NCBI RefSeq assembly: GCF_018967865.2
Contig: NZ_JAHLZY020000003.1
Span: 1 to 64,000 of the forward strand
Direction: 5' to 3'
From: Hymenobacter siberiensis
GTDB taxonomy: Bacteria; Bacteroidota; Bacteroidia; Cytophagales; Hymenobacteraceae
Length of the DNA: 64,000 nucleotides
Part shown: in pieces, positions 31,196 to 46,609 of the stretch
Layout: every line of letters starts with the position of its first letter
Numbering within the stretch: the first letter of the stretch is position 1
The notes under the pieces: model-generated
The model's database searches: none
Seen by the model: the letters and a program-made list of their open reading frames with translations, nothing else
Told to the model about the DNA's origin: nothing
Made by a program: the position numbers and the translations under genes

Positions 31196-31624
31196 TTACA
31201 GAAACGGGTATTTCTTTTGCAATACAGTCAATACTTTGGGCGGCAAAGGCCGGTAGGCTTCCTCTTTCCCCACAAAATAAGCCGTTAGCGCCGCTTCAAG
31301 AATCTCCTGAATATTCTCGCCGCCGTACGTCGCCAGTTGCTGCAGCTTTAGGTAAGTGGCAGCTTCCAGCTTGTTTGAAAAGATTATCTTTTCTGGCTTT
31401 ACGTCTTTATTGTCAAGACTATCTTTACCATAAATATTTCCTTTTATGCTGGCTGCTGGCGTTACCGAGCCCTGTATGAATTCGGCAGTACCCGCCTGGT
31501 GAGTTGGGCGAATAGTGCCGGCATTGGGCCACAGGGCCTGGTCGGGATTGATGGCTTGGGGAGGAACACCGGTAATATCGGCCACGGCGGTGGCGGCGAA
31601 ATTAGGACGAGGCTGCTTGCTCAT
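31196..31624 (-). CDS. ParB-like partition partner (ribbon-helix-helix C-terminus)
   Basis: Small protein of 142 aa encoded directly after parA; its ATG overlaps the parA stop (ATGA), implying translational coupling. The N-terminal half is polar and probably disordered. The C-terminal part (KIIFSNKLEAATYLKLQQLA to LEAALTAYFVG) has the strand-helix-helix look of a ribbon-helix-helix or similar DNA-binding domain. I see no ParB nuclease-type motifs. By position it should be the centromere-binding adaptor of a type I partition system, but the family is not recognised from sequence alone. Confidence 0.7.
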   Translation of the reverse strand: MSKQPRPNFAATAVADITGVPPQAINPDQALWPNAGTIRPTHQAGTAEFIQGSVTPAASIKGNIYGKDSLDNKDVKPEKIIFSNKLEAATYLKLQQLATYGGENIQEILEAALTAYFVGKEEAYRPLPPKVLTVLQKKYPFL

Positions 31625-32385
31625 TGCGCAATGCGGGTTAAAAGTTCTTGGGTAAGGGCCAGGTAGTCGTGCGCGCTGTTGGATTCCGGCGCATGGGCGT
31701 GAATGCTTTTTTTCAAGGCCACGGCTTCCACCAGTTTGGCGTTGATGCGGATGGACGTTTCCGTCAACAGGCCCCGTACGCGTGCTTGCTGGGCCAGCTC
31801 CGCCGCAAAATCGTGGTACACCTGCCCGCGGTAGCTGGGGTGGTATTGCGTCAGAAAGACGCCCTTCAATTCAAGGGCCGGGTTAAAATTGTCCCGCACC
31901 GCTTCCAGCATGTCAAGCAGCTTGTAAAAGCCGGCAAAAGCAAACGGGTCGGGGCGCATGGGGGCCAGCACGTAATGGGCCGCGGTCAGGCTCATCACCG
32001 TCATGGGGCCCATGGAAGGCGGCGTATCGATAACGACGTAATCGTACTGCTTCTCCAAGCCTGCCAGCTGCCGGCGGAGGAGATTGGGATGCGTGGCATC
32101 GGCCCCAATCATGCGTTCGAGGGGGCTTAGTTCGGGCCGGGAAGCAATCAGGCTCAGGTTGTCCCCCATGGGCTGCACCACCTCGGCTAGCGTTGCCTCC
32201 CCCCGCAGGACCATGCACAGGTTGGGGGCTTGCACATTAGCAAAGGTTGAGGTAAGGTTACTCTGAGGGTCACAATCGATGAGCAGCACCCGGTGACCGA
32301 GCAGCACCAGGGAATGACCTATGCCGAGCGCCGAAGTCGTTTTCCCCACCCCTCCCTTGTGCTGGGCAATTGCAATAACTTTCAT
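31621..32385 (-). CDS. parA: ParA-family partition ATPase
   Basis: Type Ib-like ParA of 254 aa. The deviant Walker A is KGGVGKTT at residues 10-17, followed by VLLIDCDPQSNLT (Walker A') and YDYVVIDTPPSMG (Walker B). No N-terminal DNA-binding extension is present, unlike type Ia. It drives plasmid segregation by ATP-dependent DNA binding, stimulated by its ParB partner. It is first in the parA-parB pair, and the AT-rich repeat block directly upstream (32386-32620) is a candidate centromere and autoregulatory site. Chromosomal MinD/Soj homologues are an alternative, but the short size and partner favour a plasmid role. Confidence 0.92.
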   Translation of the reverse strand: MKVIAIAQHKGGVGKTTSALGIGHSLVLLGHRVLLIDCDPQSNLTSTFANVQAPNLCMVLRGEATLAEVVQPMGDNLSLIASRPELSPLERMIGADATHPNLLRRQLAGLEKQYDYVVIDTPPSMGPMTVMSLTAAHYVLAPMRPDPFAFAGFYKLLDMLEAVRDNFNPALELKGVFLTQYHPSYRGQVYHDFAAELAQQARVRGLLTETSIRINAKLVEAVALKKSIHAHAPESNSAHDYLALTQELLTRIAQ

Positions 32386-32620: not shown

Positions 32621-32837
32621 GCAGAGAAGATGAATGCGCCGGATTGTGATGTTTATACCGCGCCCGCATAGTAAGTTCCTTCCATTAACTGGTACCACCG
32701 GCGAGGTGAGGTGGTCGGCTAAAGGTGGACAGCATATAGGTCCTTCTCTTTCCTGCATCGAAGCTGTTTAGAAAGTCGGTTTTTGGTTGATTTTTCGCAA
32801 AAGGATGACAACGAAGGCGAGCCAGTGCCAGGCCGGC

Positions 32838-34025
32838 TAGTGGTCAAAAAACATTAAATAGTCGGGTATAATCGGTTTAATTTAATGCGGGCATCAGCGG
32901 TTTTGAATTGCCAGTTGCGCGGTTTTAGGTTGGCATTTTGCTTGTTTTTCCACCGTTCGACGACCGCCTGCACGGCTTCTTTGCTCGAAAAGGAGCGGTC
33001 AAGCACTTGGCGCGTGAGGACGGAGAATTCAATTTCGGCCATATTCAGCCACGACCCGTGGACGGGGGTGTAAATGATTTCCATCCGCTGCACATAGGCC
33101 CGGGCGACTTCCGGTGGGAAGTGGGCGTAGAAGTTGCTGATTCGGTGCGTACTCAGGTTGTCCATCACCCAGCGCACTTTTTTCGCTTCCCGGGAGGTCG
33201 TGTCCATTAGCCGGGCCACAAACTGCACCCACGTGGCGGCTTTGTGGTGTCGTTCTCCACGGTCAACTCGCGCCAACCGCGCAACGGTTCGGTGGCGACG
33301 AACAACTCCACCACGCCCCGGCGCACGTATTCCGAATCGCGGTGTGGCTGCCCGTTGGAAGCAGTAAATTCTTGGTAATCGAGTAGTTGTTTAGGCGATT
33401 CGTCCAGGCACACAACGGGAAAATCCGCGTCGTAGGGCTGCTCGTACACGTCGAGCACCTGCTCCATCTGGCACACAAAGGCTGCGTTCTCTTCGGCCGG
33501 AATCACCCATTGCATGGGGCCCTGAAAAGGCTTAAGTTCGTTTTTTTTAGCAGCCGCGCCACCATTGTGGTCGAAATATGCTCGACCACCTGCAACTCCA
33601 CCAGCCGGTTGGCCAGCATCCCCAACTGCCAGCGCGGGTGGTCGTCGGGGGGGGGTTGGCAGAGCAAGACCGTCAGATGGGCTTCTACCCGACCGTCTAT
33701 CTTCTTGTCAGAGCGCATTTTACGTACTTTCGGCTCGAACATCTTCAGGCCTTCCTCGCAGAACTGACGGCGTACCCGTTCCACCGTGCGCGTGCAGATG
33801 CCCAGCACGGCAGCCAGTTCCAGGGCCGGGCGGCGCCCGGTCTGCTCGTCGCTGTTCAACAAAATTTGAATGTCCCGAAGTTTAGCCGAATGGGCTTTAT
33901 ACTTCTTCTGCCACCCCTCTAGGGTCTGGCGTTCGTCGGCGGTCAGGTAAAGGCGATAAAGGGTCATAACGAAGGACTTAGTCATCCTTAATCCGATACG
34001 ACCAATTAAAGTTTTTGAACCACTA
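32838..34025 (-). mobile_element. IS630-family insertion sequence, copy B, degenerate
   Basis: Imperfect inverted ends (GTGGTCAAAAAAC from 32840 and its near-complement ending at 34023) are each flanked by TA (32838-32839; 34024-34025). The element is 1,188 bp including both TA copies. Its transposase is broken. The right end lies within a metallophosphatase gene and creates its stop codon. Confidence 0.82.
32854..33985 (-). pseudogene. IS630-family transposase, frameshifted twice
   Basis: Transposase in three frames. The N-terminal winged-helix/HTH part spans 33985-33503 (LTADERQTLEGWQKKYKAHS; LAAVLGICTRTVERVRRQF). The first shift is at the A8 run near 33541-33548 and could be programmed. 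The middle part (33515-33207) contains PVVCLDESPKQLLDY with the first catalytic Asp. A second break near 33255 lies outside an obvious slip site. The last part (33276-32854) reads VRWVMDNLSTHRISNFY with the second Asp and YTPVHGSWLNMAEIEFS with the Glu. The second break suggests a dead copy, although all three catalytic residues survive. Confidence 0.8.
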
Positions 34026-34085
34026 GTGCAGGTTCAGGTAGCCGTGCACGTCATTGAGCTGAAACAGGGTGAGCGTGGTCGTCAT
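34023..34085 (-). pseudogene. 5'-nucleotidase/SoxB-like metallophosphatase, N-terminal stub cut by IS630
   Basis: The ATG at 34085 starts LTLFQLNDVHGYL, the first metal-binding motif (NDxH) of bifunctional metallophosphatase/5'-nucleotidases, a family that includes the sulfur enzyme SoxB. After 20 codons the frame ends in a TAG made partly by the IS630 target TA. The remainder is not found on the far side of the element, so a deletion accompanied or followed insertion. It is 34 bp downstream of the MFS gene on the same strand and was probably the last gene of the sulfur operon. Confidence 0.75.
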
Positions 34086-34119
34086 AGCATACAAGGAAAG
34101 TGGTGATGAGGGTGCCGCG

Positions 34120-35421
34120 TTAGCCGGCGCCCGGCCACAGCGACCGGGCAATGGCCGGCCGCTGTGGCCGGGCGGACTGGCCGCAGCTAATGGCCGGCGC
34201 GGCGTTGCCGTCCGCCACGGGCGGGCAGTACATGCGCCGCTGAATAACAAGCGCTGAAAGCACCGTAAGCCCGCCAATGGCCGCCAGGGCCGATGGCAGC
34301 CCGAAAGCATCGGCCAGCAGGCCGGTGAGCAGCGCCCCGATGGCGTAGCCCGCGTCGCGCCAGAGGCGGAAGATGCCCACGCTGCGCGCCCGCTGCGAAG
34401 CCGGCGCATACTCGGCCACCGCCGCCAGAAACGTGGGGTAGACCAGCGCCGTGCCCGCGCCGAGCAGGGCCGCCAGCAGCAGAAATACCGGGTAGGAGGA
34501 GGCAAACAGCAGGGCCAGCAACACGGCGCCCTGCAGCAGCATGCCCCAGAACAGCAGGTCCTTCTTGCAGAGTCGGTCAGCCAGCGGGCCAGTCAGAAGC
34601 TGGCCTAGGCCCCACACGGCCGGGTACACGGCGGCCACGGTGCCAATCTGCATCAGAGTGAAGCCTTTGGTGGCCAGGAGCAGCGGCAGCAGGCCCCACA
34701 CCATGCCATCGTTCAGGTTATTTACCAGCCCGGCCTGGGTCACGGAGCCCAGGTTGGGGTGGCGCCAGGTGACATCCCAGAACGAGAGGTGGGGCTCCGC
34801 CGGCCCGGCCGGGGCCTGCGCCGCTTCCAGGGCTACGTGGGCGCGGGTGTCGCGCACCAGCAGGCTGCCCAGTAGGCCCAGCACTGCCAGCGCGATGCCC
34901 AGGTAGAAGGGGTAGGGGCGCAGGCCGTATTCGGTGGCCAGCCAGCCCGAGGCGAAGGCCGTGGCCGCCACGGCCAGGTAGCCGGCCGACTCGTTCAGGC
35001 CCATGGCCAGCCCGCGCTGCTTGGGGCCCACCAGGTCCATTTTCATCACCACCGTGCTCGACCAGGCCAGGCCCTGGTTCAGGCCCAGCAGCACGTTGGC
35101 AAAAATCACCCAGCCCCAGCTCGGCGCCCAAAGTAGCAGCAGCGGCACGGGCAGCCCGAAAAGCCAGCCGATGAGCAGCAGGTTTTTACGCCCCACCTTA
35201 TTGGCCCAGGCCCCCGCGTAGTAGTTGGCCCCGGCCTTGGTGAGGCCGAATACCACAATGAACGCCAGAATGGCCGTGCGCGCCACCAGGTGAAACTCCT
35301 GCTCGGCCAGCCGGGGCAGAATCGTGCGCTCCAGCCCCACCATGCCGCCCACAAAGGCATTGATAATAACCAGCAGGGTGAACTGCCGGGCATTTTCGCG
35401 TAGGCCAAGCTGGATGGGCAT
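34120..35421 (-). CDS. MFS transporter of the sulfur island
   Basis: Major-facilitator permease of 433 aa with about 12 TM helices. Visible motifs are GAWANKVGRKNLLLIGWLFG (TM2-TM3 loop) and LLTGPLADRLCKKDLLFWGM in the second half, with a central loop LEAAQAPAGPAEPHLSFWDV. A polar tail (about 400-433) is rich in Arg/Pro/Ala and may be a read-through extension. It sits between the DsrE gene and the metallophosphatase stub on the same strand. Its substrate is unknown; context suggests a sulfur compound or its product. Confidence 0.87.
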   Translation of the reverse strand: MPIQLGLRENARQFTLLVIINAFVGGMVGLERTILPRLAEQEFHLVARTAILAFIVVFGLTKAGANYYAGAWANKVGRKNLLLIGWLFGLPVPLLLLWAPSWGWVIFANVLLGLNQGLAWSSTVVMKMDLVGPKQRGLAMGLNESAGYLAVAATAFASGWLATEYGLRPYPFYLGIALAVLGLLGSLLVRDTRAHVALEAAQAPAGPAEPHLSFWDVTWRHPNLGSVTQAGLVNNLNDGMVWGLLPLLLATKGFTLMQIGTVAAVYPAVWGLGQLLTGPLADRLCKKDLLFWGMLLQGAVLLALLFASSYPVFLLLAALLGAGTALVYPTFLAAVAEYAPASQRARSVGIFRLWRDAGYAIGALLTGLLADAFGLPSALAAIGGLTVLSALVIQRRMYCPPVADGNAAPAISCGQSARPQRPAIARSLWPGAG

Positions 35422-35525
35422 TAGGGTGGTTGAGGAGGATTGAAATAGGGGAAGAAAACCTTATGCTGAGTTCTCTGATCCATGCTCGGCATGACGGGCT
35501 TTTTTTGCTTGATATCGGAAGCCGG

Positions 35526-36074
35526 CTACGGATGCACCAGCACCCAGCCCTCAGTCTGGCGGATAATCAGCTCGCCGTTGCCGGTGGGCACCACGGAAAT
35601 GTAGGGCAGCATGTCATCCTTGGTCAGCTTATAGGCTTTCATCGAGTTCGCGCACTGGGACAGGATAACGCCGGCCTGTTGCAGGGCCAGCACGTCGGCC
35701 TCGTAGGGCTGGTCTTTTTTGAACACCACCGTGCCACCGCTGAACACCACTAGCTCCAACTCTAGCTTATCCTTTAGGCGCGGGTCTTTCAGGGCATTTT
35801 GCATGTTGTGCAGCGTCTGGTTGATGAGCTTGGGTTCGTTGCTATCGAGCTGATAAACGGCGCGATAATGCTTTTTGGTAGCTGGCGCGCCCTCAAATGC
35901 CGCCGCCTTGGCCGCTACGGCCGCATTGGGTGGCGTCAGGACCGGAGCCTGGGTTGGGGCGGTAGCGCCCGCAACTGGCGTAACAGCGGGTGCCGGAGGC
36001 GTAGTCTGGGCCTGCGCGGTGCCCATGGTGGCCAAGAGGGCGGCGGTGGCGAGCAGGCGGGAAAAGGAGTTCAT
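35526..36074 (-). CDS. Exported DsrE-family protein
   Basis: Protein of 182 aa with a signal peptide (MNSFSRLLATAALLATMGTA, cleavage after AQAQ). A Pro/Ala/Thr-rich linker (about 24-60) is followed by a DsrE/DsrF-like domain (RAVYQLDSNEPKLINQTLHN to ELVVFSGGTVVFKKD). One Cys, in VILSQCANSMKAYKL, corresponds to the sulfur-relay cysteine position of DsrE-like proteins. DsrE proteins handle sulfane sulfur; most are cytoplasmic, so export to the periplasm is notable. The ATG at 36074 is preferred over an upstream in-frame codon because it begins the signal peptide. It lies 19 bp after the porin gene. Confidence 0.85.
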   Translation of the reverse strand: MNSFSRLLATAALLATMGTAQAQTTPPAPAVTPVAGATAPTQAPVLTPPNAAVAAKAAAFEGAPATKKHYRAVYQLDSNEPKLINQTLHNMQNALKDPRLKDKLELELVVFSGGTVVFKKDQPYEADVLALQQAGVILSQCANSMKAYKLTKDDMLPYISVVPTGNGELIIRQTEGWVLVHP

Positions 36075-36093
36075 CGGCAGGCGGTTATTGGGG

Positions 36094-37557
36094 TTAGAAA
36101 TCATAGTTCAGTATCAGACTCAGCTGGTGCATGTCCACTTTATTTACCACGTAGCGGGTTTCGCCGTAAGTGTCGCCCAGGGAGGCCTTGTAAAGGTAGA
36201 GCAGCTGGCCCCGCAGGCCCTTGGCCCAGCCGCGAAGCGGGTAGCTGAGGGAGGCATTGAGCTGGCTATATGAAGGCACACCATACTTGTTGAGGCGAAA
36301 ATCCTTCATGTCGGGCAGGTAGTAGTGGCCATAGCCGGCCTCCGCCTTCAGTCCCGGCACGGCCGGCACCGCGTAGCTGGCCAGCAGCGCGGCCGCGTCG
36401 AGGCCGCCGAAACCCTCTTCCCGCTCGCGGGGCAGAAAGGTGTAGAACGGCTCGCGGCCCCACTCGCGCGGAAACAGAAAGCGCCCCGTGCGGGTGATGC
36501 GCGTGTAGTTGGCGCTCAGGCTCCAGGGGCCGTGCTGCGCGCCCAGGCGGGCGCTCAGGGCGTGGGCCTGGCGGCCAGGGGCGCTGTAGGCCAGGCGCGG
36601 GTCGGCGTTGCCGCCGGTGCCTACCGTGCGCTGGTAGTGGTACTGCGCGCCCAGCGTGAGCTGGCCCGCACCCACGGCCCGGCTGGTTGTCAGCTCCGTG
36701 AATAAGCTGTTGAAGAGGTTGTCGGCGTAGTAGTTCCAGGCCTGCATGCGGGTGCGGGTACCCAGCTGCCGGCTGAGGCCCAGCACGCCCAGGCCGCGGC
36801 TGCTCAGGTTGCCGGTATAGAGGGCGCGCTTGCCGGTTTCATCTACACCGGTCGGGTAGAGGCCGATGGAGCCCGCCACCGAGGCCCATTCCGAGGTGGA
36901 GCGCACGGCCATGTGCGTGAGCCAGCCTGCCGTGATGCGGGTGCGGGCCAGCTCGTTCACTTCCAGCCACAGACCCTGCTCGTAGTTGGGGCTCAGGCGG
37001 CCATCCTGTGGGTTGAGCAGGGGCGTGACCAGCAGCTGTCGGCCAAAGGTGGCCACCGACTTCCGCCAGCGGTAGCGCACAAACAGCTCCTCGGGCCGGC
37101 CCGTGAGCTGGCGACGGGTGGGGTCGCTCACATCAAACAGGCCTACTTCATAGCGGCTCACCGCCCCGGTAGCCGCGTCGGGCGTGGCCAGGTCATTGGC
37201 GGCCAGGTTCACCCAGAAAAAGCCGCTGGCTCCCACCGAAAACCCGTGCAGCGGGGCCGTTTCGAATCGTGCCCCGGCACCCAGGCCGTTGGCGTAGTAG
37301 TCGGGCAGGCCGCCTTGGTTGCGCGTGGCCATGAAGTAGTTGCGCACCCGGCCGTGCCACTGCCCCCGCCCGAAGGCTTCGGCCAGCGTGCGGGCCGGCA
37401 GAGTGTCGGCCTTAGCGGTTTTGGCAGGGTTGGCGTAGGGCGCCAGTACCGGCCGGCCGGTGGTGGGCAGGGTAGGGGCGGGCTCGGCCTGCTGCGCCCG
37501 CGCGGCGAGGGGAGCCAGCAACAGAGCGGCCACGCGGAGACGTAAGAGAAAATTCAT
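36094..37557 (-). CDS. OprD-family outer-membrane porin
   Basis: Predicted outer-membrane beta-barrel of 487 aa. The signal peptide MNFLLRLRVAALLLAPLAARA is followed by QGQ-like start GRVRNYFMATRNQGGLPDYY, alternating barrel strands throughout, and a terminal aromatic strand (MHQLSLILNYDF). The pattern (FATNGLG-like GLGAGARFETAPLHGFSVGA near residue 95; FGRQLLVTPLLNPQD near 170) matches the OprD family of substrate-specific channels. It lies 9 bp after the diheme cytochrome gene and 19 bp before the DsrE gene. It would let thiosulfate, tetrathionate or an organic sulfur compound into the periplasm; that substrate assignment is inference. Confidence 0.8.
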   Translation of the reverse strand: MNFLLRLRVAALLLAPLAARAQQAEPAPTLPTTGRPVLAPYANPAKTAKADTLPARTLAEAFGRGQWHGRVRNYFMATRNQGGLPDYYANGLGAGARFETAPLHGFSVGASGFFWVNLAANDLATPDAATGAVSRYEVGLFDVSDPTRRQLTGRPEELFVRYRWRKSVATFGRQLLVTPLLNPQDGRLSPNYEQGLWLEVNELARTRITAGWLTHMAVRSTSEWASVAGSIGLYPTGVDETGKRALYTGNLSSRGLGVLGLSRQLGTRTRMQAWNYYADNLFNSLFTELTTSRAVGAGQLTLGAQYHYQRTVGTGGNADPRLAYSAPGRQAHALSARLGAQHGPWSLSANYTRITRTGRFLFPREWGREPFYTFLPREREEGFGGLDAAALLASYAVPAVPGLKAEAGYGHYYLPDMKDFRLNKYGVPSYSQLNASLSYPLRGWAKGLRGQLLYLYKASLGDTYGETRYVVNKVDMHQLSLILNYDF

Positions 37558-37566
37558 TAGCGGGAA

Positions 37567-38616
37567 TTAGTTGCTTTTGCCGGGGTGGGCGGCCTCAATG
37601 GGCTGCCACGGTCCGAATTTGTGCTGCTGTACCGAAAACGCATCGGCGTAGGGCCCGAAGGGATGGTCCACCGGCTTCTTGCTGATGTCGGGCCAGTCGT
37701 GCATGGTTTTCAGGTGCGGGCGGGGCTGCGAGTTCACGAAAGCCGCCACGTCCCAGGCCTGCTTGTTGGTGAGCTGCGGGTGGTCGAAGGTGGCGCCGTA
37801 GGGCATGACCGCTTTCACATACTTGGCTAGGTTGGTGACCCGGAACAGGCCCGCGCCGTCGTTGTAGCTGTGCGGCCCCCACAGCGGCGGGTACTGGTAG
37901 CCGCAGCCGTCGGCCAGCGGCTGGCCCTGGCCAGTGGTTCCGTGGCAGCTCTGGCACTTGCTGGCGAACACGGCTTTGCCAATCACCGGGTCGGTAGCTC
38001 GGTCGAGGTAGGCCAGCTTGAGGAAGCCCGTGCCGTACACCTTTTTTCCTTTAGGAATGTCCTGACCCAGCCACTTAACGTAGGCCACAATGGCGCGCAT
38101 CTCGCGGCTGCTGTCGGCCAGCGCCCGCCCGTTGAGGCTGCGCTCCAGGCAGTCGTTCACGCGCTTATCGATGCTCTCCACTTGGCCCGAGCGGGCGCGG
38201 AGCTTGGGGTAGGTGGCCGCCACGGCCAGGTAGTTGTTAGCGAAGCCCTGGGTACCCGCCTGCAGGTGGCAGTTCTGGCAGTTCATGCCGTTGGTGAGAT
38301 GAACTACTGTGCCCTGCGGCCCCAGGTACTGCGCCGTATTAGCAATCAGCTCGCGGCCGTAGCGAATCTGGCGGCCGGCGGCCGTGCGCGGAATCAGGGC
38401 CGTATCGGGGGCCGCGGTAGCGGGGCGGTGGTAGCTGCCGGCCGGCGGCGGGCCCTGCGTGGCCTCGTCCTCTACCACCACGGGCGTGGACGCGGCCGGC
38501 GGCCCATAGAGCTTGGTGAGCACCACCACTAGAACCAGCACCACGGCCGCCGTCAGCAGCATCAGCAGGCGCACCAGGTGGGGCAGCTGTTGCACCCGTT
38601 CTTCCGAGGGTTTCAT
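37567..38616 (-). CDS. tsdA: TsdA-like diheme c-type cytochrome (thiosulfate dehydrogenase family)
   Basis: Membrane-anchored periplasmic cytochrome of 349 aa. An N-terminal TM helix (about 17-36) precedes two heme sites: CQNCH (113-117) and CQSCH (221-225). Between them RVNDCLERSLNGRAL places Cys156 about 40 residues after heme 1, as the unusual Cys axial ligand does in TsdA. The first half (LTNGMNCQNCHLQAGTQGFA; AATYPKLRARSGQVESID) follows the SoxA/TsdA pattern. TsdA couples two thiosulfates to tetrathionate, or runs the reverse reaction. Neighbours (DsrE, YeeE, persulfide dioxygenase) support a sulfur role. The direction and electron acceptor cannot be read from sequence. Confidence 0.82.
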   Translation of the reverse strand: MKPSEERVQQLPHLVRLLMLLTAAVVLVLVVVLTKLYGPPAASTPVVVEDEATQGPPPAGSYHRPATAAPDTALIPRTAAGRQIRYGRELIANTAQYLGPQGTVVHLTNGMNCQNCHLQAGTQGFANNYLAVAATYPKLRARSGQVESIDKRVNDCLERSLNGRALADSSREMRAIVAYVKWLGQDIPKGKKVYGTGFLKLAYLDRATDPVIGKAVFASKCQSCHGTTGQGQPLADGCGYQYPPLWGPHSYNDGAGLFRVTNLAKYVKAVMPYGATFDHPQLTNKQAWDVAAFVNSQPRPHLKTMHDWPDISKKPVDHPFGPYADAFSVQQHKFGPWQPIEAAHPGKSN

Positions 38617-38640
38617 GGTCAGTTTAGTGAGGAGGATACG

Positions 38641-39051
38641 TTAGTAAGGCAGCTTTTCGCGCAGGGCGCTATAGGTCCAGGTGCCGGCCAGGGCCGCCAC
38701 AATCATCACGGCCGCCGCGCCCACGCCGCTGCCCAGCTGGGCAAACAGGGGGCCGGGGCAGGCGCCGGTAATGGCCCAGCCCAAGCCGAAGATGAAGCCG
38801 CCAATCCAGATGCCGTGGTTGAATTTCTTGTCGGCGAGCACAATGGGCTCGCCGTCGATGCTTTTCAGTCGGTTGCGCTTGATGAGCTGAATCGAAATCA
38901 TGCCCACCACGACGGCCGAGCCGATGACGCCGTACATATGGAAGGCCTGAAAGCGGAACATCTCCTGAATCCGGAACCAGCTGATGACTTCGCTTTTGGT
39001 GAGGATGATGCCGAACAAGGTGCCCAGCACCAGGTATTTAAAGTATTTCAT
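38641..39051 (-). CDS. YeeE/YedE-family membrane protein, short half (DUF6691)
   Basis: Small polytopic protein of 136 aa with about four TM helices. The conserved motif FGLGWAITGACPGPLFAQLG (near residue 92-111) carries the Cys of the YeeE/YedE sulfur-transport superfamily. Bacterial YeeE imports thiosulfate by passing it over cysteines in the membrane. Its start codon overlaps the methyltransferase stop (ATGA). Split YeeE halves encoded by neighbouring genes are typical of Bacteroidota; its partner is the longer half at 39.7-40.3 kb. Confidence 0.87.
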   Translation of the reverse strand: MKYFKYLVLGTLFGIILTKSEVISWFRIQEMFRFQAFHMYGVIGSAVVVGMISIQLIKRNRLKSIDGEPIVLADKKFNHGIWIGGFIFGLGWAITGACPGPLFAQLGSGVGAAAVMIVAALAGTWTYSALREKLPY

Positions 39052-39695
39052 ATCGAGTAAGTGAGTTCAGTGGATGAGGTAGCAAGGGTGGGGCGCTGGG
39101 CCAGCAGGCGCACCACCTGGGCCGGGCCGGCGTGGAAGCTGCCTTCGCGCAGCACCACCGTGGCTTCGTAGTTTTCCAGCAGCGTCAGGCCGGCGAAATC
39201 GGCGGCCAGCTGGGCCGGCTCGTAGAGCAGCTCGGCCTCGCGCGGGCCGCCCGACGAGAGGCCGAGCTGCCGGGGATTGAAGGCCTCCAGCAGTAGGTGC
39301 CCGCCGGGGGCCAGGCTGGCCACGGCGGCGGTGTGCACTGCTTGCCGCCCAGTGGGCGGAAAATGGGCGTAAATCAGCCCGATGGCATCGTAGCCGGCTG
39401 GCTGCTGCCAGGCCAGGTCCATCAGGTCCTCCACGCGGTAGTCGAGGCGCACGCCATGGCTGGCGGCCAGGCGCTGGGCCTTGGCGCGGGCCTCGTCGCT
39501 AAAGTCCACGGCCGTGACCTGCCAGCCCTTGCGGGCGGCGTACACGGCGTTGCGGCCTTCGCCCTCGGCCAGTAGTAGCAGGCGGCCGGGTGGCAGCGTG
39601 TCGAGCTGTCGGCGGAAGTAGGCGTTGGGTTCGGTGCCGTAGGCATAGGCCTCGGCCTCGTAGCGGGCATCCCAGAAATCGGCGGCGTGCGTCAT
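39048..39695 (-). CDS. Class I SAM-dependent methyltransferase of the sulfur island
   Basis: Methyltransferase of 215 aa. The ATG at 39695 begins MTHAADFWDARYEAEAYAYG; a TTG three codons upstream is less likely. The SAM-binding motif I reads LLLLAEGEGRNAVYAARKGW, and acidic motif VTAVDFSDEARAKAQ follows. AFNPRQLGLSSGGPREAELL near residue 150 is typical of TehB/thiopurine-methyltransferase-like enzymes. It is wedged between the two YeeE halves with ATGA overlap at its 3' end, which implies joint translation. Methylation of a sulfide or thiol as detoxification is inferred from this context; the true substrate is unknown. Confidence 0.85.
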   Translation of the reverse strand: MTHAADFWDARYEAEAYAYGTEPNAYFRRQLDTLPPGRLLLLAEGEGRNAVYAARKGWQVTAVDFSDEARAKAQRLAASHGVRLDYRVEDLMDLAWQQPAGYDAIGLIYAHFPPTGRQAVHTAAVASLAPGGHLLLEAFNPRQLGLSSGGPREAELLYEPAQLAADFAGLTLLENYEATVVLREGSFHAGPAQVVRLLAQRPTLATSSTELTYSI

Positions 39696-39704
39696 GGTCG
39701 GCAA

Positions 39705-40265
39705 TTAAAACAGCTTCGGGTAAACCACCCAGGTCATCAGCAAGCCGCCGGCGAAAAAGCCGATAACGGCCACCAGCGACACCCACTGCAAATTCGAGAG
39801 GCCCGAAATGGCATGGCCCGAGGTGCAGCCCCCGGCGTAGCGCGTGCCGAAGCCCACCAGAAAGCCCCCGAATACCAGAAAGAACCAGCCTTTCCAGTTG
39901 GCTAGGTTATCAAGCGAAAACAGCTCGCGGGGGAGCAGGCCCGAAAAATCGGTGAGGTGCAGCTGGGTCTTGAGGTCGTGCACGGTTTCGGGCGAGATGC
40001 CCACCACGTCGGGGTGCCCCATCACCCGGTAGCCGATAAAGCCGCCCAGGGCCACGCCCAACACGAACACCAGGTTCCAGATTTCGGCCCGCCAGTTGTA
40101 GGTGAGAAAGGGAATGCCGGCCGGCACGCAGGCTGCGCACACATGGCGCAGCGAGGAGCTGATGCCCAGGGCCTTGTTGCCGATGAGCAGCAGGGCCGGC
40201 ACAGTCAGGCCAATCAGGGGCCCGGCCACGTACCAGGGCCAGGGCTTTTGCAAAAGTTCAAGCAT
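39705..40265 (-). CDS. YeeE/YedE-family membrane protein, long half
   Basis: Polytopic membrane protein of 186 aa and about five or six TM helices. The ATG at 40265 ([20 protein letters not shown]) is preferred over a longer polar start. Conserved cysteines occur in [15 protein letters not shown] (near residue 43-46) and in [20 protein letters not shown] (near 150), the GCTSGH pattern of YeeE/YedE thiosulfate carriers. It lies 70 bp after the rhodanese gene and 9 bp before the methyltransferase start. Together with the short half it should import thiosulfate or a related sulfur anion. Confidence 0.9.
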
Positions 40266-40335
40266 AAAATTCGAATTGAAATAGCGCGTCCGGCCCGGTT
40301 TGGAGCCGGACGCTGAGAAAAACAAAGGGGAGCGA

Positions 40336-40677
40336 CTATTTAGTCGTCAGCGGCTCGGTCCAGTCGAGCACGCCGCCGAGCAGGTTGCTCACATTGGCAA
40401 AACCGGCCTGGGTGAGCTGCCCGGCCGCGCTGGCGGAGCGGGCACCGCTGCGGCAATACACGTAGGTGGGCGCTTCTTTGTCGAGGCTGGCCACGCGCTG
40501 GGCAAAGTCGGGCGCGGTGACTTCGATGTTCACCGCCCCGGGCAAATGGCCCTGGGCAAACTCTTCGGGGCGGCGCACATCCACGAGCACCGCGTCGGGC
40601 TGGCGCAGGCCCTCGGCAAACTTTGCGGGGGTGAGGTTTTGGAAAGCGGAGTCCGCAGATTTATTGAAACCAAACAT
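40336..40677 (-). CDS. Single-domain rhodanese (sulfurtransferase)
   Basis: Cytoplasmic rhodanese of 113 aa. The domain covers LTPAKFAEGLRQPDAVLVDV to the end. The active-site loop is YCRSGARSA with Cys75; the basic residues around the Cys fit a sulfurtransferase rather than a phosphatase. It moves sulfane sulfur between thiosulfate, glutathione-like persulfide and protein thiols. It lies between the persulfide dioxygenase-rhodanese gene and the YeeE gene, in the same direction, although a REP-like palindrome separates it from the former. Confidence 0.92.
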   Translation of the reverse strand: MFGFNKSADSAFQNLTPAKFAEGLRQPDAVLVDVRRPEEFAQGHLPGAVNIEVTAPDFAQRVASLDKEAPTYVYCRSGARSASAAGQLTQAGFANVSNLLGGVLDWTEPLTTK

Positions 40678-40711
40678 AGCAGGCGAGGGGTGAGTGAAAT
40701 GAAAGAAAATT

Positions 40712-40802
40712 GACCGTCATGCTGAGCGAAGCGGAGCGCAGTCGAAGCATCTCTACCGCGGCGCACCCTGGCTTGATGCGCCACATGCTCAGCATGACGG
40801 TC
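40712..40802. repeat. REP-like palindrome (GTCATGCTGAGC family), copy 2
   Basis: GACCGTCATGCTGAGC at 40712 onward, followed by CGAAGCGGAGCGCAGTCG and GAAGCATCTC, is matched by the inverted GCTCAGCATGACGGTC ending at 40802. It lies between the dioxygenase-rhodanese and rhodanese genes of the sulfur island. Confidence 0.8.
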
Positions 40803-40812
40803 TACCGACTCG

Positions 40813-42168
40813 TTAGTGGGCGGCACCAGCCGTCTGGAAGGACTCCACGGCCTCGCCTAGGTCGAGCACCGTGGTGCCGGGCAGGGCCGGGGCCACAATG
40901 CTGCTGCCGGCTGCCGAGCGGTAGCCGCCGGCGCAATGCACCACCACGGGCTTGCCGGCCGGAATCTCGCCCACCCGCTCGCGCAGCTCGGGCAGGGGCA
41001 GGTTGAGGGCCCCGGCAAACAGCGGCTCCGCTTTCACCTCCGAGGCATTGCGGATGTCCACAATGGTGTAGTTCTCGGGGTGCTGGCGGAAGGCCTCTAC
41101 GTCGATTTCGGGCATGGTCTCCTGGGTAGAAGACGTGCCCACCAGCGCGCCTTTAATCAGCGGCTCGTAGCCGATTTTGGCCGTTTTCTGAATCAGGTCC
41201 GTCAGCGTGGCCTCGTCGGCTGCTAGCAGGTAGAACGACTCCTGCGGCCCCACAATGGAGCCCAGCCAGGTTTCGAACTTGCCGCCCTGCTGAATGTTGA
41301 TGGCCCCGGCCGCGTGGCCTTTTTTGAACTCGGCTTCGGGCCGGGTATCCACTACCACTACCCCGGCTGCCAGCGGCGCATCGGCATCCAGGCGGGGTAC
41401 CTTGGCGATGCTCGGGGCGAAGTCGGGCGCGCCGGCCTTGTTCAGGTCCACGTCGTAGCCGAAGTATTTGGGAATGAAGGGCTGGTCGGCCAGCAGCTCC
41501 TTCACGAAGTCCTCCTCCGACTGAGGACGCAGGGCGTAGTTGCCGGTCTTTTCGGCCCCGATGGTGCTGCTGTTGGCCGAGTTGGTGGCCTTGCTGCAGA
41601 GCGAGCCCGCGCCGTGGGCGGGGTACACCAGCACGTCGTCGGCCAGTGTCATTAGCTTCTCGCGGGTGCTGTGGTACATCTGCTTGGCCAGCTCCTCGCG
41701 CTTGGCGGTCATGTTGCCGGCCTTTTCGCGCAGGTCGGGCCGCCCCACGTCGCCGATGAGCAGCGTGTCGCCCGTGAACACGGCCACGTCTTTGCCCTCG
41801 CGGCTGAGCACGGTGCTCACCGAATCGGGTGAGTGGCCGGGCGTATTCAGGGCTCGGAAGGTGAGCTTGCCCACCATGAACGAGTCGCCCTCGTCAAACG
41901 CCTCGTGGGCGTATTCGGCTCCCAGTAGCTTGCTGACGCGAATAACGGCGCCGGTTTGCTGCGCGATTTCCAAGTGCGATGACACGAAGTCGGCGTGGGG
42001 GTGGGTTTCGAGCACGCACACGATTTTGGCGTCGTGCTGCTTCGCGAAATCGTAGTATTGCTGCGGGTCGCGGGCGGGGTCCACCAACACGATTTCGCGG
42101 GCGCAATCACTGAGGATGGCGTAGGAATAATGGGCGAGGCCCTTGTCTTCAAATTGCTCGATTTTCAT
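40813..42168 (-). CDS. Persulfide dioxygenase (ETHE1-like) fused to two rhodanese domains
   Basis: Fusion enzyme of 451 aa. The N-terminal MBL domain (1-245) has ETHPHADFVSSH (His56, His58, Asp60, His65), NTPGHSPDSVS, AVFTGDTLLIGDVGRPDL and VYPAHGAGSLC, the pattern of ETHE1-type persulfide dioxygenases that oxidise GSH-persulfide-like substrates to sulfite. A first rhodanese-like domain (about 260-350) lacks the active Cys (FYLLAADEA). A second (about 365-451) has it in VVHCAGGYRSA (Cys412). Sulfite made here would be exported by TauE/SafE next door. It lies 45 bp after the exporter gene. Confidence 0.92.
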   Translation of the reverse strand: MKIEQFEDKGLAHYSYAILSDCAREIVLVDPARDPQQYYDFAKQHDAKIVCVLETHPHADFVSSHLEIAQQTGAVIRVSKLLGAEYAHEAFDEGDSFMVGKLTFRALNTPGHSPDSVSTVLSREGKDVAVFTGDTLLIGDVGRPDLREKAGNMTAKREELAKQMYHSTREKLMTLADDVLVYPAHGAGSLCSKATNSANSSTIGAEKTGNYALRPQSEEDFVKELLADQPFIPKYFGYDVDLNKAGAPDFAPSIAKVPRLDADAPLAAGVVVVDTRPEAEFKKGHAAGAINIQQGGKFETWLGSIVGPQESFYLLAADEATLTDLIQKTAKIGYEPLIKGALVGTSSTQETMPEIDVEAFRQHPENYTIVDIRNASEVKAEPLFAGALNLPLPELRERVGEIPAGKPVVVHCAGGYRSAAGSSIVAPALPGTTVLDLGEAVESFQTAGAAH

Positions 42169-42213
42169 GGTATTCGATGAGAAACGGGTGAGAGAATGTT
42201 GAAAAACAGTTTG

Positions 42214-43032
42214 TTAAGCGTGATGAAACAGTAGCTCCTTGGTGAGAATAAACGTGCCCATGGCCAGCGTGAACCAGCCGAAAGCGGGCTTGAGCTTGGC
42301 CCCTGGAATGAAGCGGGCCAGGTAGGTGCCCAGCACGATGCCGCCGAGGGCAAAGGCCAGAAAACCAAGGATAAAGGGCCACGCAATGGGCGTGCCCGCG
42401 CTCAAATCGCCGCTGAAGCCGATGAGCGAGTTGAGGGCAATAATGGCCAGGGAGGTGCCCACGGCCAGCTTCATGGGCAGGCGTGCGCCCAGCACCAGGG
42501 CCGGAATGATGAGGAAGCCGCCCCCCGCGCCCACAAAACCCGTGAGCAGACCCACCACCAGGCCAATGCCCAGAATGAGCAGGTAGTTGAACGCGTGCTT
42601 CTGGTGCAGCTCCTCGCCCAGCACCACTTCGGCCTGCTTGCTGCGAATCATGGAAACGGCCGCGCCGACCATGAGTACCGCAAAGGCCACCAGTACTAGC
42701 AAATCCTTGGTAAAGAGGATGTTGCCCACCGTGAACAGCTCGTGCGGGATGGCCGGCATCAGCACCTTGCGCACCAAGAACACCGAGGCCAGCGAGGGAA
42801 TCAGAAACACCACGGCCGTTTTCAGCGACACCAGCCCCTTGCGGAAATAGCCCCAGGCGCCCACCACCGAGGTGCTGCCTACTACAAACAGCGAATACGC
42901 CGTACTCAGCACCGGGCTCACGCCCATCAGGTACACCAGCACGGGCACCGTGAGAATGGAGCCCCCGCCGCCCATGATGCCGAGCGAGAGGCCGATAAAG
43001 ATGGCGGCGAAATAACCGAGGTAGTGAAGCAT
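42214..43032 (-). CDS. TauE/SafE-family sulfite exporter
   Basis: Integral membrane protein of 272 aa with about eight TM helices. The N-terminal half contains [20 protein letters not shown], the second the homologous [20 protein letters not shown]; these paired Gly-rich motifs define the TauE/SafE family. It removes sulfite, or a similar sulfur anion, produced by the adjacent persulfide dioxygenase. The gene follows the ArsR regulator (65-bp gap containing an ATGAA/TTCAT inverted motif) and precedes the dioxygenase. Confidence 0.9.
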
Positions 43033-43097
43033 GCGTGTTTTACGTATGAATTTATGAAAGGTTGTTCATGTGTTGCGGCAAAAAAAGCGCCGGTTCC

Positions 43098-43421
43098 TTA
43101 CAAAAAGGTGCAGCCGGCCAGGCACTGAATCACGTCAATCACCTCCCGCATTTTCAGCGAGTAGTAAATGTTCTTGCCCTCGCGGGTGCTGCTCAGAATG
43201 CCCTTGAGCTTCATGCCCGAGAGGTGGTGCGAGAGCAGGCTCTGCTCCACGCTCAGCTTGTCGCTGATTTCTGTGACCGACAGGCTTTCCTGCGCGGCCA
43301 GCAGCTGCACGATGGCGATGCGCGTAGGGTGGGCCGTGGTTTTGAGAATGAAGGCCACTTTCTCCATCTTCTCGATGGAGAGGCCCATATCAATGGCAGC
43401 AGGGGAAGCGAGAAGTGTCAT
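43098..43421 (-). CDS. ArsR-family regulator with C-terminal CxxxC pair
   Basis: Winged-helix repressor of 107 aa. Core: FILKTTAHPTRIAIVQLLAA, then SVTEISDKLSVEQSLLSHHL (recognition helix) and GILSSTREGKNIYYSLKMRE (wing). The only cysteines are Cys100 and Cys104 (VIQCLAGCTFL) at the C-terminus. Persulfide sensors such as BigR and SqrR also use a Cys pair, but at different positions, and metal sensors use an ELCVCD-type helix. I infer a sulfur- or redox-responsive repressor of the downstream sulfur genes. It is first in the operon and divergent from tlpA. Confidence 0.85.
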   Translation of the reverse strand: MTLLASPAAIDMGLSIEKMEKVAFILKTTAHPTRIAIVQLLAAQESLSVTEISDKLSVEQSLLSHHLSGMKLKGILSSTREGKNIYYSLKMREVIDVIQCLAGCTFL

Positions 43422-43553
43422 TTGGATTGCAAATATATGAACAACTTATCATGCGTACAATCGTAAGCCCCCAATAAGTTCACCATGTTCAATAATTTCC
43501 TTCCCGGAACCTACGCCCTCGAGGAGCTTTCGAACTATTTCAATTTTCCAACC
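43422..43553. promoter_or_regulatory. Divergent promoter region between arsR-type gene and tlpA
   Basis: 132 bp, AT-rich. On the minus strand the sequence reads AGTTGTTCATATATTTG upstream of the regulator. The word TTGTTCAT also occurs at 43062-43069 upstream of the exporter gene, close to ATGAATTTATGAAAG. These shared half-sites may be operator parts for the ArsR protein; this is weak and based on two occurrences. Confidence 0.4.
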
Positions 43554-44159
43554 ATGAATCGAAAAACCCTCACCTCCTGGCTCCCGTTGGCCCTGTTTGC
43601 CCTCGTCATGCTTTCGCCCCTGCGGCCCATCGTGCTTGGTGGCCTGCAGCGCGGCCTGCTGGCTACCGGCCTTATGAAAGCCGACGTGCCCGTCGCGCCC
43701 GCCAACGAAATGCCGGTGGTGCTCACCGGCGGCAGCGCCTACCCCCACAACCTGCCCATGACCACCCTCGACGGCAAAGCCTTGAATCTGAGCGACCTGA
43801 AAGGCAAAGTGGTGTTCGTGAACCTCTGGGCCAGCTGGTGCCCGCCTTGCCGTGCCGAAATGCCCGGCATCGAGGCCCTCTATAAGAAGGTGGACCACTC
43901 CAAAGTGGCCTTCGTGATGCTCTCGCTCGATGATGACGTGGCCAAGGCCCAGAAGTTCGTGAAGGCCCAGGGCTACACCTTTCCCGTGTACATGCGCACC
44001 GGCGACCTGCCCGCGCCGTTCGATTCCAACTCCATCCCCTCCACCGTCATCCTTGGCCCCGATGGGCAGGTAGCGGCTCGCCACGACGGCATGGCCGAGT
44101 ACGACACGCCCGAGTTCCTGGCCGCGCTGGATAAGCTGGCGAAAGGAGCAACTCGCTGA
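43554..44159 (+). CDS. TlpA-like thioredoxin-fold protein, membrane-anchored
   Basis: Protein of 201 aa. It begins with the ATG at 43554, giving an N-terminal TM anchor (LPLALFALVMLSPLRPIVL). A thioredoxin/AhpC-type domain follows, with NLWASWCPPCRAEMPGIEAL (Cys96 and Cys99, CPPC) and SIPSTVILGPDGQVAAR containing the cis-Pro loop. It faces the periplasm and may reduce disulfides, for example heme-binding cysteines of the island's c-type cytochrome, or sulfur-carrier cysteines. It is transcribed away from the arsR gene across a shared promoter region, so co-regulation is plausible. An upstream in-frame ATG exists but would give no clean anchor. Confidence 0.88.
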   Translation: MNRKTLTSWLPLALFALVMLSPLRPIVLGGLQRGLLATGLMKADVPVAPANEMPVVLTGGSAYPHNLPMTTLDGKALNLSDLKGKVVFVNLWASWCPPCRAEMPGIEALYKKVDHSKVAFVMLSLDDDVAKAQKFVKAQGYTFPVYMRTGDLPAPFDSNSIPSTVILGPDGQVAARHDGMAEYDTPEFLAALDKLAKGATR

Positions 44160-44296: not shown

Positions 44297-45313
44297 TCAG
44301 GCCGGTATTGCCATTGGTGGGGGCGGGACCAGCTCGTTGGGTGTGGGCTGCCCGGCTAGCCAGCAGTCCAGGCTTTCGATGGAGGTGGTGGCGATGTTAG
44401 TCAGCGCGTCGTGGGTCAGGAAGCCCTGGTGGCCGGTTATCAGCACGTTGGGGTGGGCCAGCAGCCGCACCAGCAGCGCATCCTGGAGGGGCTGCCGGGA
44501 ATGGTCGTTGAAAAACAGGCCTTTTTCGTGCTCGTACACATCGAGCCCCAGGTAGCCCAGCTGGCCCGATTCCAGCACCTTAAGGGCGGCCTCCGTGTCC
44601 AGCAGCGCGCCCCGACCCGTGTTGATGAGCATAACGCCGCGCTTGGTGCGGGCCAGCTGCGCCGCGTTCATTAGGTGCCGGGTGACGGGCGTGAGCGGGG
44701 CGTGTAGGGTGATGACATCGGCCTGCGCGCACAGCTCGTTCAGCGACACGTATTCCAGGCCGTAGCGCCGGGTCAGCTCCGCATCGGGCTGGATGTCGTA
44801 GCCCAGCAATCGGCAGCCGAAGCCGTGCAGCAGGCCCGCCAACGTGCCGCCGATGGTGCCGCAGCCGATGATACCCACCGTTTTGCCGTGCAAATCGAAG
44901 CCCACGAGGTTGTCGAGCCGGAAGTCGGCGCGGCGCACCTGGGCATCGGCCTGGCGCAGGTGGCGGTTCAGGGCCAGCATGAGGGCCAGGGTGTGCTCGG
45001 CAATGGCGAAAGGGGAGTAGTGCGGCACGTTGGCCACGCGCAGGCCCAGCCGGTGGGCGGCGGGCAGGTCCACGTTGTCGTGGCCGGCGGCGCGCACCAG
45101 CAGGTAGCGCACGCCCAGCGCCCGGAGTTTTTCGAGCACTGGCGCGGAGGCATCGTCGTTTACGAATATGGCCACGGCGGTGCTGCCGGCGGCCTGGGCA
45201 GCGGTTTCCAGGGTCAGGGCCGCGTCCAGGAAATGGAAGGTGTGATGGCCCTGCGCGGCGGTGGTGAGGTAGGGGCGCTCGAAGGGGTAGGCGCTGAAAA
45301 CGGTGATGGTCAT
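44297..45313 (-). CDS. D-2-hydroxyacid dehydrogenase (D-lactate dehydrogenase type)
   Basis: NAD-dependent dehydrogenase of 338 aa. It starts with MTITVFSAYPFERPYL at the ATG at 45313; the frame continues upstream without homology. The substrate domain ends near LVRAAGHDNVDLPAAHRLGL, and the Rossmann motif is TVGIIGCGTIGGTLAGLL. Catalytic residues are visible in LINTGRGALLDTEAAL (Arg), LDVYEHEKGLFF (Glu) and ITGHQGFLTHDAL (His). This HQGF/ YEHEKGLFF pattern is that of D-lactate dehydrogenases (LdhA-like), which reduce pyruvate to D-lactate. The gene is single and divergent from the universal stress gene. Confidence 0.9.
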   Translation of the reverse strand: MTITVFSAYPFERPYLTTAAQGHHTFHFLDAALTLETAAQAAGSTAVAIFVNDDASAPVLEKLRALGVRYLLVRAAGHDNVDLPAAHRLGLRVANVPHYSPFAIAEHTLALMLALNRHLRQADAQVRRADFRLDNLVGFDLHGKTVGIIGCGTIGGTLAGLLHGFGCRLLGYDIQPDAELTRRYGLEYVSLNELCAQADVITLHAPLTPVTRHLMNAAQLARTKRGVMLINTGRGALLDTEAALKVLESGQLGYLGLDVYEHEKGLFFNDHSRQPLQDALLVRLLAHPNVLITGHQGFLTHDALTNIATTSIESLDCWLAGQPTPNELVPPPPMAIPA

Positions 45314-45543
45314 GGGATTGTGTTGAAGAAAAGGATGTTGGGTACAAATTGTCGGGTGAGGAGTGGCGCGCCGGCAGCCGTGCTCAGGGAATTTCGCAAA
45401 GCGGTGGAAATACAAGAATACGCCGCGCGCGCAGCCGGCTCCTTGATAAAAGTCATTCCCGGGGCCTGACCTTGCGCATGCCGTTTGCCGCCCGCTGCCC
45501 GGTTCTTTGCCAGTGCTGTTACCTCCGCCCCAAGCACCGCCCC

Positions 45544-46368: not shown

Positions 46369-46461
46369 CGCTGCACGTAGAAGAACTAACCCGCCAGGCC
46401 GCCAGGGCCCGGCAACGAAGCCTGGGTGATAATGAGGCACAGTCTTGTTAATTAAATTCTT

Positions 46462-46532
46462 GTGCCCGGCACCCGTATGCTCCGGTCCGACCGCCTGGGG
46501 CAGTCGGACCGGAGCATACGGGTGCCGGGCAC
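46462..46532. repeat. 30-bp perfect inverted repeat
   Basis: Left arm 46462-46491 (starting GTGCCCGGCACCCGTATGCT) and right arm 46503-46532 are exact complements around an 11-nt loop. It lies 93 bp after the stress-protein stop and 77 bp before the P-type ATPase start. There is no T-run, so it may be a palindromic repeat unit, an RNA hairpin in the leader, or a terminator. Confidence 0.75.
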
Positions 46533-46609
46533 GGCTTCCTTTTTGCCTCGCGCGGCTTCCGCTTCGCGCCCCGGCGGGCATTCGGGCAAATTCAACTTAA
46601 CATCTTCCT

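Follow-up and report, generated by a model that had tools for sequence, protein, structure and literature searches.

Background

The described systems closest to the locus considered here are the TsdA-SoxB pathway of Erythrobacter flavus 21-3, the cst operon of Staphylococcus aureus and the bigR operon of Xylella and Agrobacterium; what is cited from these and other papers refers to the parts of their text that were available. The locus itself is a run of sulfur genes, headed by the gene of an ArsR-type repressor and including that of a TsdA-type cytochrome, in the first 64,000 nucleotides (the window) of contig NZ_JAHLZY020000003.1 of Hymenobacter siberiensis. In E. flavus 21-3, TsdA, SoxB and the sulfur dioxygenases SdoA/B act in sequence, with SoxB acting on tetrathionate, and tsdA and soxB are stated to occur in Bacteroidetes also (PMC7608252). 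The likeness to the island and its relatives lies in TsdA, in a SoxB acting on tetrathionate and not on SoxYZ-bound sulfur, and in a sulfur dioxygenase. However, the island is one tight run that also contains a porin, an exported DsrE, PmpAB-like halves and TauE, and the SoxB-like proteins are far from curated SoxB, without signal peptide in Hymenobacter and lost in the strain of the window. The species in the legend of Fig. 7 of the Erythrobacter paper are, as we take it, not Bacteroidota.

The cst operon (CstR, TauE, CstA, CstB, SQR; PMC5480029) shares TauE, a CstB-like dioxygenase and a repressor gene with the island, whereas the island repressor is of the ArsR type and not CsoR-like, SQR and CstA are absent from the run, and the presumably periplasmic TsdA and DsrE and the porin are added. 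The bigR operon also combines a repressor, TauE and a sulfurtransferase-dioxygenase enzyme (PMC5823870). It differs from the island in the cysteines of the repressor (Cys42/Cys108 in BigR, C100/C104 in the island protein) and in the order of the enzyme domains, since Blh has an N-terminal sulfurtransferase followed by the sulfur dioxygenase (SDO) domain and the island enzyme has the metallo-β-lactamase (MBL) domain first. An assignment of the island as a bigR operon was rejected, with 57 of 155 bits for the BigR model and 48.7 of 625 bits for Blh; BigR is presumably an ArsR-family repressor as well. The island is also unlike the Sox pathway: SoxY (PF13501) is found in none of 120 Hymenobacter genomes by a model that is positive in 30 of 247 genomes of the phylum, SoxZ not being part of this search.

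Organization and conservation of the island

The run (34023-43421, Table 1) comprises 11 intact genes and a 20-codon stub, all on the minus strand, in the order ArsR, TauE, CstB-like fusion, rhodanese, YeeE half, methyltransferase, YeeE half, TsdA, OprD porin, DsrE, MFS and stub. This is in agreement with the preliminary description of the window, in which twelve same-strand genes had been read from ArsR to the stub; the families proposed there are each borne out by the domain searches (Pfam/NCBIfam), and the statement that most gaps are shorter than 110 bp holds for 10 of the 11 intergenic gaps, some of them overlaps, the exception being the one that separates the fusion enzyme from the rhodanese (135 bp). 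It is proposed, with a probability of about one half, that the genes of the run form a single sulfur module with ArsR at its head, which links a thiosulfate/tetrathionate cytochrome in the periplasm to the oxidation of persulfide in the cytoplasm, and which is plasmid-borne in this species and in several other Hymenobacter. The sequence comparisons give good support to the view that these sulfur genes are inherited together as a module, because the gene order is conserved and because TsdA shows a statistical association with the porin, the exported DsrE and the SoxB-like hydrolase.

Among the 120 Hymenobacter genomes, TsdA (limit E <= 1e-40) is found in 42, with 53 matches. Of these, 31 are 68-100% identical and belong to the window type, 21 are 43-48% identical and form a second type, and one is a fragment. 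The 30 window-type loci other than the window were fetched, together with six of the 21 second-type loci. With a gene counted as present where a match has 50% identity or more and spans half of the query or more, the 30 window-type loci contain TauE (30), DsrE (28), ArsR (26), both YeeE halves (26), the CstB-like enzyme (25), the rhodanese (25), the OprD porin (19), the methyltransferase (19), the MFS transporter (14), a nucleotidase-type lipoprotein (9) and the SoxB-like hydrolase (7), and the smallest islands consist of TauE-TsdA-DsrE (L120, L121). A wider TsdA scan covers the best 80 of at least 587 confirmed loci, a sample that favours close relatives because it holds top-ranked loci only. 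In this sample, the gene order recurs in all 10 Hymenobacter loci, which overlap the 30 window-type loci, with single genes absent in some; the conserved neighbourhood that had been set beforehand as a check on the grouping is thus found and excludes a chance grouping. Over the 80 loci, clusters of the YeeE halves are present in 53 and 50, SoxB/nucleotidase-like hydrolases in 51, DsrE in 50, OprD in 46 and TauE in 38.

At the level of the class, 295 Bacteroidia genomes, including that of the window and with three Hymenobacter, were compared using four profiles (limits of 1e-60 for TsdA and the SoxB-like hydrolase, 1e-8 for DsrE and 1e-40 for the porin). TsdA is present in 61 genomes. The exported SoxB-like hydrolase is present in 37, 35 of them with TsdA and 28 with it within 5 kb (Fisher p = 2e-26), the exported DsrE in 34 (31 with TsdA, 25 within 5 kb; 1e-21) and the OprD-like porin in 45 (32 with TsdA, 31 within 5 kb; 5e-16), where the p-values assume independent genomes. 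Within the 61 TsdA genomes, the porin is associated with the SoxB-like hydrolase and with DsrE, each with p about 0.005. These links, mostly over less than 5 kb and in a sample with only three Hymenobacter genomes, argue against a loose set of sulfur stress genes that would have been co-located by plasmid traffic and co-regulation without forming a single pathway. Such a set would fit with the modular gene content, which varies among the loci, with the variation of the regulator (ArsR cluster in 13, Crp-like cluster in 17 of the best 80 loci) and with the six Hymenobacter plasmid records in which 29-70% of the region is found with 80-83% identity, but it is the least probable of the explanations considered here.

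Table 1. Features of the sulfur island and of the adjoining insertion sequence (window coordinates)
Feature	Coordinates	Strand	Evidence
ArsR/SmtB-family repressor, 107 aa	43098..43421	-	Pfam HTH_5; NCBIfam ArsR/SmtB subfamily above cut-off
TauE/SafE exporter (predicted)	42214..43032	-	Pfam TauE 127.9 bits
CstB-like persulfide dioxygenase - pseudo-rhodanese - rhodanese fusion, 451 aa	40813..42168	-	3tp9, 3r2u full-length matches
Single-domain rhodanese, 113 aa, CRSGAR loop	40336..40677	-	Pfam Rhodanese 82.4 bits
YeeE half, PmpA-like, GGCTSGH; matches TsuA C-terminal half	39705..40265	-	Pfam Sulf_transp 67.4 bits
Class I SAM methyltransferase between YeeE halves	39048..39704	-	Methyltransf_25 8e-12; TehB, TPMT matches weaker
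YeeE half, PmpB-like, DUF6691, GACPGP; matches TsuA N-terminal half	38641..39051	-	Sulf_transp above cut-off
TsdA-type di-haem cytochrome c	37567..38616	-	SoxA-TsdA_cyt-c + Cytochrom_C; TsdA structures 1e-47
OprD-family outer-membrane porin (predicted)	36094..37557	-	Pfam OprD 49.9 bits, cut-off 25
Exported DsrE-family protein (predicted)	35526..36074	-	Pfam DsrE 30.0 bits, cut-off 22.7
MFS transporter	34120..35421	-	MFS_1 166.8 bits
20-codon remnant of SoxB-like metallohydrolase gene	34023..34085	-	Match to intact H. artigasi gene
IS630-like insertion sequence, ends SoxB-like gene	32836..34024	-	3 more full copies in genome

The TsdA cytochrome and the exported DsrE protein

The cytochrome of the window is assigned to the TsdA type, and interconversion of thiosulfate and tetrathionate is predicted for it. 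As in the TsdA enzymes of Allochromatium vinosum and Campylobacter jejuni, both haem motifs are present, with a Cys as haem-1 ligand and a Met at haem 2; the two CxxCH motifs, the haem-1 Cys (C156) and the haem-2 Met (M271) of the window TsdA are retained in 80 of its 80 nearest relatives. Unlike these two enzymes, it has a hydrophobic N-terminal segment, which is read as a membrane anchor, a C-terminal extension of about 40 residues and an exported DsrE as its usual neighbour. The extension (DWPD..KP.DHPFGPY..., window 37570-37704) lies beyond the part matching the solved enzymes, and six positions checked in it are retained in 77-80 of the 80 relatives. The TsdA of Hymenobacter artigasi is 93% identical to that of the window.

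The residue preceding the haem-2 Met is Asn in 70 and Ala in 10 of the 80 relatives and Val in the window TsdA, which therefore has no Lys at this site, as in C. jejuni and unlike A. vinosum. In A. vinosum TsdA this Lys is a ligand, and the C. jejuni enzyme has Asn254 (PMC5146829). It is possible, but quite unlikely, that the TsdA of the module runs in reverse as a tetrathionate reductase, serving tetrathionate scavenging or low-oxygen respiration. This is in agreement with the residues found before the Met and with the properties of the tetrathionate-reducing C. jejuni enzyme, in which the change of Asn254 into Gly kept the reduction unaltered and lowered the oxidation. However, introduction of the Lys into the C. 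jejuni enzyme gave no thiosulfate oxidizer (PMC5146829), so that this residue alone does not set the direction; moreover, the neighbours of TsdA are predicted to be oxygen-using enzymes of persulfide oxidation, and a dedicated electron donor was not recognised within the run.

The start of the exported DsrE protein is likely at 36074, by reading of the alignment, with the open reading frame (ORF) opening at 36104, and its signal peptide is read as ending in AQ; signal peptides were called here by simple patterns and reading, not by a trained predictor. Counting from the ORF opening at 36104, residue 151 is a Cys (C151) that all 54 cluster members share and that aligns with those of MTH1491 and ST0148, so that the protein has both the score and the cysteine of its family. 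Three of the 54 members, from Spirosoma, seem to be without signal peptide. The exported DsrE is taken to be a dedicated partner of TsdA, which it may contact directly, because it is beside TsdA in 34 of the 36 fetched Hymenobacter loci and is without TsdA in only 3 of the 34 genomes of the class that have it. In all 34 Hymenobacter loci with both genes, DsrE is downstream of TsdA on the same strand. The special closeness of these two genes had been missed in the preliminary description. The six second-type loci (L122-L127) contain TsdA and an exported DsrE but lack every other island gene queried, which suggests that the two genes form a separate unit. As for the chemistry of such a pair, TsdA treated with sulfite gives a cysteinyl sulfonate, and cysteinyl thiosulfate is a proposed intermediate (PMC9562282). 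A soda-lake study mentions, in its available text, a cytochrome c4 gene by tsdA only in gammaproteobacterial genomes and not in Cecembia (PMC6704655).

The interrupted SoxB-like gene

The stub at the end of the run had been described as that of a metallophosphatase; the stub is real, and its likeness to SoxB had been overlooked. In H. artigasi, an intact gene (L002:14514-15947) with the same start as the stub lies after the MFS gene and codes for a protein of 478 residues, with no signal peptide seen by reading; 19 of the 20 residues of the stub match it. The best PDB match of this protein is SoxB (2wdc, 3.6e-39), compared with 6.9e-21 for the best nucleotidase, and its AHWDF is aligned with SHWEW of 2wdc. 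What remains in the window is thus the beginning of a SoxB-like gene that an IS630-like element has interrupted. This element, which presumably belongs to the IS630 family, has ends read as inverted CTAGTGGT.. repeats and three full copies elsewhere in the genome (98-99% identical), and the DNA past it is, by reading, not the remainder of the SoxB-like gene. The other genome of the species examined (L092) has the identical cut and the same stub, and remnants of the gene are also present in L117 and L118. A relocated copy in the genome of the window is ruled out, the sole other match being a 320-residue frame with the nucleotidase-type motif GNHDF.

The hydrolases of the relatives form three motif groups: signal-less proteins with AHW(D/E)F (class A), aligned with SHWEW of 2wdc, exported proteins with GNWEV and with Tat-like or lipoprotein-like N-termini (class B), which are intermediate, and the nucleotidase type with GNHDF. 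The HW that replaces the NH of the nucleotidase motif is taken by us as the mark of SoxB; the 20 codons of the window stub end short of this motif. The SoxB-like hydrolase is exported in many other Bacteroidota and signal-less in Hymenobacter, where 13 of the 16 genomes with a near-full-length gene (>700 bits) have TsdA, compared with 42 of the 120 overall (p = 7e-5). The metallophosphatase of the relatives was rejected as a canonical SoxB, since it does not reach the curated cut-off of the TIGR04486 model (550 bits). A second metallohydrolase by the island is encoded by a lipoprotein-like gene of the nucleotidase type, which lies upstream of ArsR in 9 of the 30 Hymenobacter loci and is divergent from it in several species (for example L003:3153-4856); it was rejected as SoxB in view of its motif, GNHDF or GNHDY.

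The other proteins of the island

The ArsR protein, which would control the run, has C100 and C104 near its C-terminus, and this pair is retained in all nine other Hymenobacter sequences aligned with it. A Crp-type cluster is near TsdA in 17 of the best 80 loci and the ArsR cluster in 13; five loci (L014, L015, L021, L036 and L058) have the Crp-type cluster and no member of the ArsR cluster, so that one regulator may have replaced the other in the control of the module.

The fusion enzyme has full-length matches to 3tp9 (2e-68) and 3r2u (1.3e-47), the latter being, as we take it, S. aureus CstB, and it also matches ETHE1 (4e-18), with which the HxHxD, GHxP and GD..GRPD stretches, presumed to bind the metal, are aligned. 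Its domain order, MBL - pseudo-rhodanese - rhodanese, is that of CstB, with a Cys in the second rhodanese domain (VHCAGG) and none in the first. This order is also what would be expected if the island worked from the inside out, as a detoxification in which internal sulfide and persulfides are converted by the CstB-like enzyme into thiosulfate or sulfite, TauE expels these, and TsdA forms the less reactive tetrathionate, which leaves via the porin. The cst operon of S. aureus is such a sulfide-to-thiosulfate oxidation system, in which TauE is a putative sulfonate/thiosulfate exporter (PMC5480029). Moreover, the minimal islands L120 and L121 have dropped the YeeE halves and retain TauE-TsdA-DsrE, and an oxidoreductase of the Pyr_redox_2 family, which may be a sulfide:quinone reductase, is near TsdA in 7 of the best 80 loci. 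However, the same minimal islands are also without CstB, the supposed source of the thiosulfate, the window run has no Pyr_redox_2 oxidoreductase, and the YeeE halves, proposed to be importers, are kept in 26 of the 30 loci. This detoxification is less probable than the module proposed above, and it retains real weight.

PmpA and PmpB have been proposed to form a YeeE heterodimer (PMC11582611). The two half-size proteins of the island resemble these, and TsuA, in matching the TsuA halves with Cys at the aligned sites; unlike PmpA/PmpB, they have the methyltransferase gene between them, and the C-half is about 186 residues long, versus about 130. Both are above the Sulf_transp cut-off and each has the key Cys. 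The alignments with the TsuA halves are positioned around its cysteines but are weak (E 0.026 for the C-half and 2.8e-4 for the N-half), and the cut-off of the full-length TsuA model (400) is not reached. The ORF of the PmpA-like half opens at 40325, and its start is probably at 40265 by reading of the alignment. The weak TehB and TPMT matches of the methyltransferase suggest that it could methylate a sulfur compound. Its relatives are also found upstream of TsdA in Spirosoma (L021, L027, L055). The porin scores above the cut-off of the OprD/Occ family (Table 1), and its N-terminus is read as a signal peptide; the profile of its family finds 14 distinct PDB sequences, 13 of them named porin and one 'membrane protein', with E from 8e-6 to 0.004.

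Proposed working of the module

In the proposed module, small sulfur oxyanions would pass the outer membrane via the OprD-family channel, and thiosulfate would be bound by the haem-1 Cys of TsdA and oxidized to tetrathionate, with a second thiosulfate completing the product; alternatively, TsdA would hand on the Cys-S-SSO3 group to an accepting thiol partner. The exported DsrE, with its single invariant Cys, would take up or hold sulfane sulfur from TsdA, and the split, PmpAB-like YeeE pair would move sulfane sulfur or thiosulfate inward. There, the rhodanese would pass sulfane sulfur to a thiol, the CstB-like dioxygenase would oxidize the persulfide, whether imported or internal, and TauE, perhaps together with the MFS transporter, would expel sulfite or thiosulfate. 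In the relatives, the SoxB-like hydrolase would free sulfate from the S-thiosulfonate; its exported forms fit the slot of the E. flavus SoxB, acting on tetrathionate after TsdA. In the species of the window this gene is a stub, and tetrathionate or sulfane sulfur would therefore be the expected end point. The idea of a full route from the outside to sulfite, put forward in the preliminary description, is thus right in its grouping of the sulfur genes, but the route is incomplete in this strain, and the outside-to-inside direction is only one of those possible, in view of the minimal TauE-TsdA-DsrE islands, the CstB-like fusion and a TsdA haem 2 without the Lys of A. vinosum.

A more elaborate version would be a Sox-like route without SoxYZ, in which TsdA loads Cys-S-SSO3 on the DsrE Cys as carrier, the SoxB-like hydrolase frees sulfate, and the split YeeE takes in the remaining persulfide for oxidation by the CstB-like enzyme, the signal-less SoxB-like protein of Hymenobacter hydrolysing in the cytoplasm; this is considered unlikely. 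We know of no SoxB for which cytoplasmic hydrolysis has been described.

Several points weigh against the proposed module. The Fisher tests ignore shared ancestry. Among the 61 genomes with TsdA, DsrE and the SoxB-like hydrolase occur independently of each other (19 with both, 16 with the hydrolase only, 12 with DsrE only and 14 with neither at the limits used; p = 0.61), so that DsrE is not tied to the SoxB step, and an obligate DsrE-SoxB partnership is unsupported. PmpAB of Hyphomicrobium denitrificans showed no link to sulfur oxidation (PMC11582611). The SoxB-like gene of Hymenobacter is rare and decaying, being near full length in 16 of the 120 genomes, one of which has a stop. Finally, 10 relatives score only 213-300 bits with TIGR04486, and SoxB is the top-scoring model for all 10, including the nucleotidase-type L003 protein with GNHDF (262.8 bits), so that this model fails to separate the groups.

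Replicon and flanking genes

The contig is 149.5 kb long and belongs to a three-contig genome of 4.83 Mb. It is probably a plasmid, without sign of self-transfer, because a ParA-like gene (31621-32385, identified by reading its sequence) lies just downstream of the run and because nine plasmid records, eight from Hymenobacter and one from Spirosoma, match the region. About 70% of the query is covered by each of the two best, with 80-83% identity, 29-35% by four more and only 1-6% by the last three, and eight of the nine are predicted to be non-mobilizable. In other species, related islands are on multi-megabase contigs, for example L099 and L108.

A divergent gene of a TlpA-like thioredoxin (43485-44159) faces ArsR and is present in 12 of the 30 Hymenobacter loci. 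A D-2-hydroxyacid dehydrogenase gene (44297-45415) adjoins the island, and apparently the same family is near TsdA in 8 of the best 80 loci, including one of an Algoriphagus. Outside the island (45349-50617 and 57351-58793) are genes of a universal stress protein, a P-type cation ATPase, a Na+/H+ antiporter and a beta-CASP metallohydrolase.

Significance

Bacteroidetes tsdA has already been reported from metagenomes (PMC7887784, PMC6704655), and the companions of TsdA in the island were not found described in the available text of the Bacteroidetes literature searched. In these searches, no paper on thiosulfate dehydrogenase in Hymenobacter was found, and none of the titles listed concerned a periplasmic DsrE with thiosulfate dehydrogenase in Bacteroidetes. 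Within this literature, the pairing of TsdA with an exported DsrE, the porin link and the signal-less SoxB-like form look new, and no earlier mention of the stub being a SoxB-like gene cut by an IS was found.

This TsdA is present in 61 of the 295 Bacteroidia genomes sampled, roughly one in five, and its companions are often those of the island; the exported single-Cys DsrE is a concrete candidate for a TsdA partner where no cytochrome partner gene adjoins. The species of the window is a natural SoxB-like knock-out and, next to H. artigasi with its intact gene, offers a ready comparison of the sulfur end point.

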